Shown here one piece after another: positions 4,093 through 23,430 of a DNA stretch of 64,000 nucleotides. The DNA comes from Haloarchaeobius amylolyticus (GTDB lineage: Archaea; Halobacteriota; Halobacteria; Halobacteriales; Natrialbaceae): assembly GCF_026616195.1 (NCBI RefSeq), contig NZ_JANHDH010000004.1:186001-250000 (forward strand). The letters run 5' to 3'. Positions within the stretch are counted from its first letter, which is position 1. Every line of letters starts with the position of its first letter. The notes below the pieces were generated by a model. The model was not told where the DNA came from. It searched no databases and was given only the letters and a program-made list of their open reading frames with translations. The position numbers were made by a program, and so were the translations under genes.

Positions 4093-6125
4093 GAACGGGT
4101 ACCTCCTGCAGTGACACGCTCCGAACGAATCCGCGTCTGCGGGTATTCTCCGGTGCCGTTCCCTTCGTCGAAGTCCAACCAGTATTGTTGACCCACTCTC
4201 GTCTTCATCTCATCTTCGACAGGCCCCTCCCATTGGGAGTCTGTCGCGAAAACGACGACCTGATTGGCCAGCTTCGGGATAACCCGACTCACCTGACGGC
4301 GGTGCGATTTGTCGAGTGCACCGAACGGTGAATCCATGACTAGGGGGTAAATACCACCGGTGAAATACTCAGAGTCGGCATCAGACTCGTAGCGCTGGCG
4401 AGCAATGTCCACGAGACTCCCGACGAAAGCAAGGCTCGCAATTTGGCGTTCGCCGGTAGACTTGTCGACCTCAATGCGTTCCCCACCGACATCTTGCCAT
4501 ATCTTCAGTTTGAAATCTTCGGTGACTTCCGCCGTCATGTCCTTGCTAGCTATCGACCCAAAGGTTTCATTTATTTTTGAGTTCGAGAGTTCTCGGACTT
4601 TGTTCTTCAGGCCGGCGAACGCCTCATCCAGTTCGTCGCTGACCAATTCAGCCGCTCGTTGCCGTCGCTTCGCAATAAGCGCCTCTTCCTGTTCGTCACG
4701 CTGTGCGTCAATCCTTTCTTCCAATTCTGCGATGGCTTCCTCTTTTTGTTCAATCCGTTCTTCAACCCGTCCAAGTTCATTCGCCAACTGATCCCGTTCC
4801 TGTTGTTTCGATTCGCGCATTTTCTCCAGGTCTTTAATGGACTCGCCGGATTCTGTCGTTTGGTCCATGTCCTGAAGCTCCGAACTCACTTCGTCTATGA
4901 GTTCTTCCTTCTCGATAATTTCATCATGAAGTTCCTTCCGTTCTGCGATGAAGTCGTCTACGTTTTCGAAGAACTCTGACTCTAACTCTTCGATTTGGTT
5001 GAGGTGGCCAATGATCCGAATAGCGCTTTGCTCGACACCGTCAGCGACTCCCTCACCCTTCATCGATTCAATTTGACGGCGATGTTTCGTCCCCGATTCC
5101 AGAGACCGTCCACAGATGCACTGCTCGGCTTCCAGTAGTGAATCGATGTAAGAGTTGCTCAGATCGGAGGGTATCACTCCATCCTTCCGCATCTCGTCAA
5201 GTTGCTCAGCTGTATCCTCCAACAACGGCATGGCTAGCGGAACGAACCCCTTACCATCAACTTCGTTTCGAATGGCCTCGTTGATGTCCTCAACTTGCTC
5301 CTTCAATGCCTGCCGCTGGGTCTCATATTCCTCCCGTCGTTCCTGTAATGCGGCACTCTCGTCAAGACGTTCGAGCTTCTGGTCAATGTCCCGAATCTCG
5401 GTCTTGATTCGTTCCCTCGCCCGCTTCTTATCCTTGTGTTCTCGTTCGAGTGCTTCTAATTCCCCCTCAAGCTTCCGTTTCTTTTCAATTAGTCCCGCGA
5501 GTTCGTCGCTGGCGTACTCTTCGACTTCGTCCTCGAAGCGACCACTGACTGTGTCCAAGTGTCGTGTCGCTCGTTCGAGGATGGTGAGCCCCATGATATT
5601 CTGGATGGATTCCTGGATGCGGTCCTGGTTGTCAATACCAGCAAGCTCTTCGATATCTTCACCATCAAAGAAAAAGAGGCTACTCAGCCGTTCTGGAATA
5701 ATCTGATCGAGGGTATTTCTTGGATTTCCACGTTCATTCCACGTCTCGCCGTCTTTCGACTTGACCGTCAGGTCCATGTCGACCATCTCCCCGTCGAAGT
5801 CGGTAGCTGACTGCTTTTCGTAGACGGCTTGACGTTCCGCAACATAGGACACGTTGTCATGCTCGAACTCAAGAACCACAGACACGGTTAGTCGGTCCCC
5901 AACTCCTGCCTCGGCTATCGCGCCTTCTGTCACGAGCCTGTCTGGGCGAGTGTCGAAATCGACATCGTTGTAGAAGAGCCATGTAAACGCGTTCAAGAGC
6001 GTCGTCTTACCGGCACCGTTCGAGCCATGAATCACAGTTACACCCTCGTTGGCTTCCCGAGCGAACTCGATAGACTCGTCACGAAACTGCCGGAAATTCT
6101 CGAGCGAAAGCCGATGGAGTTCCAT
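4089..6125 (-). CDS. DndD/Rad50-like SMC-type ATPase
   Basis: A 678-residue SMC-like ATPase. It opens LHRLSLENFRQFRDESIEF, followed by Walker A GSNGAGKTT (residues 34-42). A long charged coiled coil fills roughly 200-285 and 375-530, broken by CICGR near 336, a zinc-hook-like apex. Signature-like STGERQIASLAFVGS is followed by Walker B LVMDSPFGALD near 595. Length and layout match DndD, the ATPase of DNA phosphorothioation, and related defence ATPases; RecF/Rad50-type repair ATPases are the alternative. It overlaps the 59-residue gene before it (ATGA) and the 158-residue gene after it, forming a tight three-gene unit. DndC and DndA partners are not in the window, so phosphorothioation itself is not shown. 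Confidence 0.75.
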   Translation of the reverse strand: MELHRLSLENFRQFRDESIEFAREANEGVTVIHGSNGAGKTTLLNAFTWLFYNDVDFDTRPDRLVTEGAIAEAGVGDRLTVSVVLEFEHDNVSYVAERQAVYEKQSATDFDGEMVDMDLTVKSKDGETWNERGNPRNTLDQIIPERLSSLFFFDGEDIEELAGIDNQDRIQESIQNIMGLTILERATRHLDTVSGRFEDEVEEYASDELAGLIEKKRKLEGELEALEREHKDKKRARERIKTEIRDIDQKLERLDESAALQERREEYETQRQALKEQVEDINEAIRNEVDGKGFVPLAMPLLEDTAEQLDEMRKDGVIPSDLSNSYIDSLLEAEQCICGRSLESGTKHRRQIESMKGEGVADGVEQSAIRIIGHLNQIEELESEFFENVDDFIAERKELHDEIIEKEELIDEVSSELQDMDQTTESGESIKDLEKMRESKQQERDQLANELGRVEERIEQKEEAIAELEERIDAQRDEQEEALIAKRRQRAAELVSDELDEAFAGLKNKVRELSNSKINETFGSIASKDMTAEVTEDFKLKIWQDVGGERIEVDKSTGERQIASLAFVGSLVDIARQRYESDADSEYFTGGIYPLVMDSPFGALDKSHRRQVSRVIPKLANQVVVFATDSQWEGPVEDEMKTRVGQQYWLDFDEGNGTGEYPQTRIRSERVTAGGTRS

Positions 6126-20827: not shown

Positions 20828-20930
20828 ATCCCCCCGAACTGGCCGATGTTAGGAGATGTATGGTCTCTCTTCGAGTTGAAGCATCTAGTGAAATTATGTA
20901 AGACCACATCGAAACGTGTGCTACCGTCAA

Positions 20931-21347
20931 ATGACAAACGTCCCAGATTCGCTTGAGCTACTCTTTACTGGACGGCTCCAGCGATCAGATGACACTTACC
21001 TAATCGAGGTTCCAGAAACTGAGGTCGACTACGGCTCACTGGTAGTCGGTAACAGGTATCGTGTAGCTCTCATTGAACACACCAGCAATTCTCCCGTTGA
21101 GAAAGAGAATACGTCCCCTGACTCTCGGGAACAGTACGGGAACCACACCCGACAGACGGGACCACCTGTTAGTGAAGGAGAAGTTCGCGAGGTGACCATC
21201 GAGACGACTGGCCAACAAGGGGACGGCATTGCAAAGGTCGAACGGGGTTTTGTTGTAATCGTTCCTGACGCACGCCCCGGAGACGAACCAGTCGTCATGA
21301 TCGAAAAAGTCCGGGAGAACGTTGCGTTCGCGAGCGTTCAACGCTAG
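20931..21347 (+). CDS. TRAM-domain protein
   Basis: A 138-residue protein. The N-terminal 50 residues contain YLIEVPETEVDYGSLVVGNRYRV-like beta sequence (quoted in part: EVDYGSLVVGNRYRVALI). After an acidic and polar linker, the C-terminal 60 residues form a TRAM domain (GDGIAKVERGFVVIVP, then GDEPVVMIEKVRENVAFASV). Archaeal TRAM proteins bind RNA and act like cold-shock chaperones. The ATG at 20931 (MTNVPDSL) is preferred to a GTG 15 bp upstream. It stands alone, pointing toward the partition operon. Confidence 0.8.
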   Translation: MTNVPDSLELLFTGRLQRSDDTYLIEVPETEVDYGSLVVGNRYRVALIEHTSNSPVEKENTSPDSREQYGNHTRQTGPPVSEGEVREVTIETTGQQGDGIAKVERGFVVIVPDARPGDEPVVMIEKVRENVAFASVQR

Positions 21348-21389: not shown

Positions 21390-21434
21390 TTGCAATGGGT
21401 GTTTGTAACGATGACTTGTAACGATTACTTGTAG
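21390..21434. repeat. 13 bp iterons, cluster 1 (downstream of the par operon)
   Basis: Four TTGTA/TTGCA units start at 21390, 21403, 21416 and 21429, exactly 13 bp apart, most followed by AC or AA. The same unit and period recur upstream of parA, so the operon is bracketed by the arrays. Confidence 0.8.
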
Positions 21435-21514
21435 AGCGTTTTCTCTTCCAAGCAGGCTCTTGATTAGCAACTGGCAGTTCGTCCAGCTAAAGGATGGACT
21501 TCGACGTGGTTCAA

Positions 21515-21997
21515 CTACTCGTCATCGAGCGCATAGCCCATCTTGAGGAGTTCTTCGAGGACATCATCACGATTTCGAAGAGCAGCACGATAGACCGCCT
21601 CCCGAACGTCAAACTTTGGCACGTCTCGACCGAGCTTCGACTCGAGTTCCATGAGAAGATCTCTCTCACCCTCGGCGACATCGTCGTGGACGAAGAACGT
21701 CAGCCGTTCGTCGCGCTCGAACTGGACGGACTTGTCCTGGACTGCCCGGCGAACGATGTAGGGCTGGGACTGCGACCCCGACTGGGATGTACTTGAAGCC
21801 GACGAGGGGTCGGAGTCGGGACTCGACATCGACGATTCAACCTCAGTTGCGGACGGACTCGAATTCGATTCGGCCGTCTCTGTCGGGTCGGGAGTAGACT
21901 CCGGCTCACCGGTGGCCTCGTTCTCTGGTTCTTCCTCCTCATCTTCGGATTCGTCACCCCACAGGTCGTCCCCGGCGCCTGATTTCAGACCCGTCAT
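21515..21997 (-). CDS. Acidic ParA-partner protein
   Basis: A 160-residue protein overlapping the end of parA by 4 bp (ATGA). Residues 1-75 are an acidic, Ser/Glu-rich disordered region. The C-terminal 85 residues are ordered (KSVQFERDERLTFFVHDDV, then DVPKFDVREAVYRAALRNRD) and could form a DNA-binding fold. Its place after parA suggests the centromere-binding partner, the role ParB or other adaptors play elsewhere, though no ParB HTH is seen. The 13 bp iterons on both sides of the operon are the obvious candidate target. Confidence 0.6.
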   Translation of the reverse strand: MTGLKSGAGDDLWGDESEDEEEEPENEATGEPESTPDPTETAESNSSPSATEVESSMSSPDSDPSSASSTSQSGSQSQPYIVRRAVQDKSVQFERDERLTFFVHDDVAEGERDLLMELESKLGRDVPKFDVREAVYRAALRNRDDVLEELLKMGYALDDE

Positions 21998-22890
21998 GGC
22001 TTGACCTCCAGGTCATCTTGTTCGAGGTTTCCGGGTTCTGGTTGGTTCGGTGCCTCGAGGCCACCTTGCTGCTCGAGGTTGCGAGCCAGTTCGTCGAACT
22101 TCGTCAGGGTATCGAGTTCATACTCTCGCTGGCGGTCGCGATGTTCGCGCACGTACGTGAAGGCACTACACTTCTGCCGCCAGCATCCTTCTAGAAGAGA
22201 CGTGCGGTCGCGGAAGATGACTGGGACCTCGAAGCCTTGCTCTCTGACCTCAGCGATGATCTCGTCTTGGTCTTTGGTCCCCTTGAACCGGTTCGGGACT
22301 GCAGCAAGGACACCGATGTTGATCTCCAGCTGGTCTTCGAGGTTCGTCACAAGGTCGTCGAGACCACTGACTGAAGCCTGTCCTTTCCCGGATGGTTCGA
22401 CTGGGATGACGAGGTTCCGGGTCGCGTCGAGTGCATTGTAGAGATGCGGTCCGGAACTTGCTGGCGGGTCGACGATGAGCACGTCGTAGTGCTTGTGGAC
22501 CTCGGCCTCACGGAGTACCCGCTGGAGTTGCGTCCACATTGGGAAGGACTCGCCGAAGTCACTCCTCGCCTCTTGCTCCTTACGGAGCGCTTCTCCGAGG
22601 TCTTCCAGTCGATTGTGTTCCGGGATGATGTCGACACCGTGTTCGACAGACTTGATCAGGTCCTGGAAGTCGCCTTTCCCTCGCCCAACAAGATGGTGGA
22701 CAAGCGTGTCGACCTCACTGTTGGAGCGGTCGTGGTCGACGTCGAAGAGGTAGCTCAGGTCGCCATCCTGAGGGTCGAGCGGAATCGCCAGCACGTCCAG
22801 TCCTGCCCGAGCGTGGGCGACCGCCAGATTCGCTGTGAGTGTCGTCTTTCCAACGCCACCAGCCTCGCTGTACACCGCGTATGAGAGCAT
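21994..22890 (-). CDS. parA: ParA-type partition ATPase
   Basis: A 298-residue ParA/Soj-type ATPase for plasmid partition. The P-loop is SEAGGVGKTT (residues 8-17), switch I-like DPQDGDLSYLF follows near 38, and DVLIVDPPASSG near 135 is the Walker B region. The deviant Walker A lysine of classic ParA (KGGxGKT) is Ala here, a variation I recall from haloarchaeal paralogues. The C-terminal 40 residues are a variable tail rich in Glu, Gln and Pro. The ATG at 22890 lies about 25 bp downstream of an ATTATAAG TATA box. The gene is co-translated with the acidic partner gene. Confidence 0.85.
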   Translation of the reverse strand: MLSYAVYSEAGGVGKTTLTANLAVAHARAGLDVLAIPLDPQDGDLSYLFDVDHDRSNSEVDTLVHHLVGRGKGDFQDLIKSVEHGVDIIPEHNRLEDLGEALRKEQEARSDFGESFPMWTQLQRVLREAEVHKHYDVLIVDPPASSGPHLYNALDATRNLVIPVEPSGKGQASVSGLDDLVTNLEDQLEINIGVLAAVPNRFKGTKDQDEIIAEVREQGFEVPVIFRDRTSLLEGCWRQKCSAFTYVREHRDRQREYELDTLTKFDELARNLEQQGGLEAPNQPEPGNLEQDDLEVKP

Positions 22891-22903
22891 ATACTGGTGT
22901 CAT

Positions 22904-22921
22904 TGTAGACTTCCATTATAA
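22904..22921 (-). promoter_or_regulatory. parA promoter with an iteron unit at the start site
   Basis: Reverse-strand CTTATAAT at 22914-22921 is the TATA box. One TTGTA unit at 22904-22908 sits between it and the parA start, where a bound protein would block initiation. This suggests the iteron-binding protein represses its own operon. Confidence 0.55.
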
Positions 22922-22954
22922 GTTTTAGTCAGACGAAGCAACTGCACCACACGT

Positions 22955-23430
22955 TTGAATGCTGCATTTGAAACATACAATTGTAGCAACTGTTTGTAAC
23001 GGGCGTTTGTAGTAAGTGGGTGTTCTCAGTATTTGATTTCCTTGATTGGCTCAAATACCTGTTCCTAGTACCTAAGATGGTCGAATAACAGAACCAAGTG
23101 TTTGAAACATACACTTGTAACAAGCATTTGTAGCGGATCCGATCCGACTTCAATCAGTATTGTCGTGGGTCTTGTAGGCACTGGCTATGCATTTGTAATG
23201 GGTGCTTGTAACAACCAGTTGTAACGAACCTACTACAGTTTGGAAAAGTGCCGACCCCGATTTCGAATGAATGGATCTCTCTGTTTGCAACAAGTAGTTG
23301 TAGCAACTAATTGTAGCAACGGCTTTTCTCGAGTCCTTCTTTTCTGCTCCATCGAGCTCCTGACGACGAATAGCTGGCCAGTCTATACATTTGAAACAAC
23401 TATTTGCAACAACTACTTGTAACCAACATC
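22955..23430. repeat. 13 bp iterons, clusters 2-6 (upstream of parA)
   Basis: Units of TTGTA, TTGAA or TTGCA, usually followed by RC, occur in phase: 22955, 22968, 22981, 22994, 23007; 23102, 23115, 23128; 23193, 23206, 23219 (plus a stray unit at 23172); 23285, 23298, 23311; and 23391, 23404, 23417. Within every cluster the step is exactly 13 bp, and clusters are 65-95 bp apart. All point the same way on the forward strand. No gene lies here. This is the layout of a centromere or replication-iteron region. Confidence 0.85.

Follow-up and report, generated by a model that had tools for sequence, protein, structure and literature searches.

A candidate centromere of 13-bp iterons and its putative reader beside a ParA-like gene in haloarchaea

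Described partition systems and the haloarchaeal locus

In an archaeal review, plasmid centromeres are listed as an open question. In the delta/omega/parS system of pSM19035, the ribbon-helix-helix (RHH) protein omega binds contiguous, non-palindromic repeats of 7 bp that overlap the par promoters, with one dimer per repeat, and at least four contiguous repeats are needed (PMC9499535). Among archaea, SegAB of the Sulfolobales is chromosomal and pairs a ParA homologue with a DNA-binding partner encoded downstream; of its two palindromic sites, both upstream of segA, one is at the start codon and the other at -59 (PMC5120986). The archaeal plasmid pNOB8 has the three-protein system AspA-ParB-ParA, in which a site-specific dimeric adaptor recognizes a single 23-bp palindrome, with spreading, upstream of the operon (PMC5120986). 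Finally, in the ParMRC systems of Clostridium perfringens plasmids, driven by the actin-like ParM, cognate centromere-binding specificity sets compatibility, and the same family is not found in one strain (PMC9426499).

We analyzed a window of 64,000 nucleotides from Haloarchaeobius amylolyticus (contig NZ_JANHDH010000004.1) in which arrays of short iterons accompany an operon coding for a ParA-like ATPase and a small partner protein (Table 1). Judging from sequence, these arrays are probably (at roughly 0.8) the centromere, i.e., a parS/parC analogue, of a plasmid and megaplasmid partition system specific to Halobacteria and composed of the ParA-like ATPase, the partner, and the iterons. Its closest working analogue is, judged by its parts, pSM19035 delta/omega/parS, with which it shares a ParA-like ATPase with a small partner and a centromere (a candidate one here) whose contiguous short repeats overlap par promoters (PMC9499535). 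The haloarchaeal units probably also take one dimer each, and the window has clusters of three to five units where pSM19035 requires at least four repeats (PMC9499535). However, the haloarchaeal unit is 13 bp long and mostly near-palindromic, its word has diverged into many classes while the pitch has stayed constant, and the partner has a long acidic linker and no detectable similarity to solved structures. SegAB is similar in its ParA homologue, its downstream DNA-binding partner (putative here), and its palindromic sites upstream of the operon, but it has no long fixed-pitch iteron array (PMC5120986). AspA-ParB-ParA shares the archaeal plasmid setting, the dimeric adaptor (predicted here), and the location of the site; membership in this system was rejected because the haloarchaeal locus has two genes and many iterated 13-bp units, not three genes and a 23-bp palindrome (PMC5120986). 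As in ParMRC, the DNA-word specificity of a (predicted) centromere-binding protein would sort the replicons, although the motor here is a ParA-like ATPase (PMC9426499).

Open-access papers, to which the search was limited, yielded no account of a haloarchaeal centromere or of the partner family. The preliminary description of this DNA had taken the arrays as a strong candidate for a haloarchaeal centromere whose type had not been described, and this view is supported by the recurrence of the 13-bp step at other loci, by the lack of an account in the papers searched, by the way in which the word tracks the partner, and by the different words of co-resident systems. For replicons in 53 of the 77 haloarchaeal genera sampled, the outcome is a predicted centromere with its predicted reader and word classes, so that haloarchaeal segregation, incompatibility, and vector design become directly testable.

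The array in the window and the adjoining genes

Table 1. Features of the candidate partition locus (positions within the window)
Feature	Position	Strand	Remark
Cluster 1	21390..21433	+	four TTGNA units, 13-bp step; downstream of partner gene
Partner, putative centromere-binding protein, 160 aa	21515..21997	-	three-part architecture
parA-like ATPase, 298 aa	21994..22890	-	AAA_31 E 2.3e-19, CbiA 1.7e-14
TATA-like TTATAA	22916..22921	-	~28 bp before parA ATG, between gene and arrays; read from sequence
Cluster 2	22955..23011	+	five units, 13-bp step; closest to parA promoter
Cluster 3	23102..23132	+	three units, 13-bp step
Cluster 4	23193..23223	+	three units, 13-bp step
Cluster 5	23285..23315	+	three units, 13-bp step
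Cluster 6	23391..23421	+	three units, 13-bp step

We counted exactly 21 TTG[T/A/C]A units in the window, grouped into six clusters, all on the plus strand and with a strict 13-bp step, in agreement with the preliminary description, which had counted at least 21. Within the array region, neighboring units are 13 bp apart in 15 pairs and in none at steps of 8 to 12 or 14 to 18, and simulating the region 5,000 times with a first-order Markov model never produced a run of three or more units. The pattern TTGNA-N8-TTGNA-N8-TTGNA has nine matches in the whole 4.6-Mb genome, all of them at this array, compared with a single match for the reversed control pattern and zero for a control version with a 12-bp step. 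The true unit extends beyond TTGNA and is a near-palindrome of ~10 bp (GTTTGNAACA) occurring every 13 bp. At 10.5 bp per turn, the step corresponds to a rotation of ~86 degrees; that is, it is not a multiple of the helical turn and successive units rotate around the helix, as had been pointed out before, and four units (52 bp, 4.95 turns) are therefore back on one face. Five of the clusters are located upstream of parA, 65 to 530 bp before its ATG and spread over 470 bp. They are short (3 to 5 units in all six), and relatives mostly have one or two longer runs near parA. The claim that arrays bracket the par operon is thus correct for the window, with five clusters upstream and one downstream, but not as a general trait: only 5 of ~110 loci were found to have chains on the downstream side of the partner gene, and the downstream cluster of four is a peculiarity of this locus.

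The parA stop and the partner start overlap by 4 bp, here and in most loci. The P-loop of the ParA-like protein spans residues 10-16 and, with such an early start, the protein lacks an N-terminal DNA-binding domain such as that of type Ia. A Walker ParA ATPase without that domain, a small partner next to it, and iterated sites (a candidate centromere) adjoining the operon are traits of type Ib, and all were found here. The deviant Walker A signature is KGGxxGK[T/S], with its signature lysine. In 142 aligned sequences of the ParA-like family, the Walker A motif is instead SEAGGVGK[T/S] or AGGVxK[T/S], with an invariant alanine (A10) at the position of the signature lysine. Since this lysine is missing, we have named the protein ParA-like and have not filed the system as a type Ib member, although it would work like one. 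A TRAM-domain gene adjoins the par locus both in the window (20916-21347) and in Halorientalis marina (L028 1657-2130).

The 13-bp step across haloarchaea

Relatives of the ParA-like protein (E <= 1e-60) were present in 169 of 292 Halobacteria genomes, distributed over 53 of 77 genera. The first set comprised 135 loci that, together with earlier plasmid loci, made 146, or 143 after duplicate removal. We scanned lags 7-24 in the DNA upstream of parA, assuming neither a word nor a period. Lag 13 ranked first in 138 of the 146 loci before duplicate removal and in 135 (700 bp upstream) or 138 (350 bp) of the 143 non-redundant ones. By comparison, no parA coding region, used as a control, had 13 as its top lag, nor was 13 among the six commonest lags in far-upstream, downstream, or shuffled controls. 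Mean identity at lags 13, 26, 39, and 52 was 0.40, 0.38, 0.35, and 0.33 over the 143 loci, the background being 0.25. Using the partner profile, we recovered a second set of 40 loci, most of them absent from the first ParA list; 39 have a ParA, whose identity to the nearest query is no more than 41-59% in nearly all cases, and lag 13 was the top one in 34 of them. The preliminary description had proposed looking for this step beside parA on further haloarchaeal plasmids, and both sets bear out the expectation behind that proposal. What the family conserves is the 13-bp step and not the TTGNA word. Arrays of the Haloarcula-like class e2 are weak (about 0.50-0.56), and in the window genome, contigs C3 and C5 carry distant ParA paralogues that have neither a partner nor a 13-bp array. 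The full parA-partner-array module was also found in two IMG/VR contigs classed as viral (L167 and L198; 47.7 and 53.5 kb), both with a class b partner (TVQLHLQ) and the class b word TATCTTAGATA at step 13. One was retrieved with the partner query L145 and the second with two ParA queries; three other partner queries had no match in these scans.

The array is nearly always directly upstream of parA, its end being at a median of 49 bp before the ATG, a position that would also suit a mere operator through which the partner autoregulates the parA operon, the real centromere being elsewhere. This seems unlikely, however, since the number of units (median of 10 per 600 bp, up to 28) far exceeds what an operator needs, and the clusters of the window reach 530 bp upstream and are found behind the operon as well. 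Furthermore, known RHH partition sites have both roles (PMC9499535), and the lack of shared words among arrays of one cell (see below) fits a centromere. That the units are replication iterons for Orc1/Cdc6 or another initiator is considerably less probable. An orc1/cdc6 gene is indeed located 1.2 kb from the left cluster, but of 135 array loci only 9 have such a gene at a distance of up to 1.5 kb (as do 2 of 13 larger loci), and it is the par partner that the word follows. In haloarchaea, ORBs are long and bear a G-string (PMC3528665), unlike the 13-bp units, which have none; an Orc1/Cdc6 origin with ORB repeats was rejected on the rarity of the gene near the arrays and the absent G-string.

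The partner, its word, and co-resident systems

The partner comprises an N-terminal peptide (MTGLKSGAGDD), an acidic Ser/Glu/Asp linker with a net charge of -20, and an 80-residue C-terminal domain with invariant R84, R95, D130, E133, A134, L150, and G154. The peptide is conserved as GxKxGxGDD, K5 and G7 being invariant. A phylum-wide search found the partner only in Halobacteria, save for one marginal match (E 7.6e-4). Scanned together with 42 relatives, it matched no family consistently in Pfam, NCBIfam, or PHROGs, and a ParB-CTPase (ParABS) was ruled out, as neither ParBc nor any other Pfam family was detected in these 43 partners. Their profile matched no related chain among PDB sequences, the sole comparison bearing on the SegB family. 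The sequence pattern of the domain is strand-helix-helix, with DLREA aligning on the REAL motif of RHH proteins, which makes an RHH fold plausible and, in our opinion, probable. HHalign against haloarchaeal RHH_1 proteins gave the right register in global mode, although not significantly. AF2 monomer models were weak (pLDDT ~60), with three helices and no resolved strand; Foldseek retrieved nothing with them at E <= 0.001, and structure comparison placed the NikR RHH domain (Z 3.1) amid unrelated rows. UBA-like three-helix domains, with low Foldseek and VIA-align scores on the same weak models, were set aside as a common arrangement. Decayed loci were also seen: locus L003 has remnants of a second partner copy (4733-5784) downstream of the intact one, and a plasmid of Halomarina sp. 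BCD28 carries a frameshifted partner with neither ParA nor array.

We grouped the loci by the putative DNA-contact segment of the partner. The class of the window (LTFFVH) has the word given above; class b has TATCTWAGATA, the VPLFLQ class TGTTCAT(TA), the VPYFLR class TATAGCTATA, the RPIFLR class words of the TAGCTA or GCTG types, and the NEHVAFLR class TTGAAYCA, and there are smaller classes beyond these six. Word similarity is 0.57-0.85 within classes and about 0.31-0.40 between them. In most classes, the unit is close to a palindrome (self-reverse-complement similarity of 0.66-0.95), as expected for binding by a dimer, with the exception of class c (0.29), whose words are not palindromic. 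Across 110 loci, the partial correlation of the word with the partner C-terminus, given ParA, was 0.52, a link that is partly phylogenetic, while that with ParA, given the partner C-terminus, was 0.12. Word following the partner far more than ParA points to the partner C-terminal domain as the reader of the array. Specific reading by ParA itself, which could explain its uncorrected correlation with the word (r 0.68), is hardly credible given the drop to 0.12 and a P-loop that leaves no place for a type Ia DNA-binding domain. The beta-strand could not be upheld as the sole determinant of the word, as the partner helices correlate equally well.

The window genome has a second system on its 2.4-Mb chromosomal contig C1, with a ParA 63% identical, a partner with a different strand, and denser TGTTCAC units at step 13 in long perfect stretches (L029 4450-4730). 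We compared 142 arrays from 111 genomes, including 39 same-genome pairs, taking a similarity of >0.6 as a shared word. None of the 39 pairs shared a word, versus 13% expected (P 0.003 by label permutation, an optimistic value given the non-independence of related genomes that have the same replicon sets). The absence of shared words in one cell is what would be expected of a centromere read by its cognate partner, and the best reading of these sequences is that the word sets incompatibility.

With the exact array, the family-wide 13-bp pitch, the array-partner specificity classes, and the same-word avoidance per cell obtained by computation, we infer for this candidate centromere a mechanism of partner binding, ATPase stimulation, segregation, and autoregulation. 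The C-terminal domain, probably as a dimer, would bind each near-palindromic unit of ~10 bp, one dimer per unit, and adjacent dimers 13 bp apart would pack as a spiral with about four per 52 bp. The flexible acidic linker would then present the N-terminal GxKxGxGDD peptide to the ParA-like ATPase, which would move or position the plasmid. As the array is on the promoter side of parA, the same binding at the promoter-proximal cluster probably represses the partner's own operon. We are inclined to see here a partition family specific to one archaeal class, driven by a ParA-like ATPase without the signature lysine, in which a frozen pitch (13 bp, ~86 degrees per unit) would be combined with at least 10 mutually exclusive word/reader classes, and the words may thus represent a natural incompatibility code of haloarchaeal replicons. 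The system also poses a structural question, namely, why the 13 bp are fixed and yet the word is free.

One further class, with the strand KQRPIFIRPEV (L120, L121, L123, L125-L127, L129, L130, L132, and L133), has a short, weak array near parA, and systems of class b and of the NEHVAFLR class are present as well in several of its genomes.
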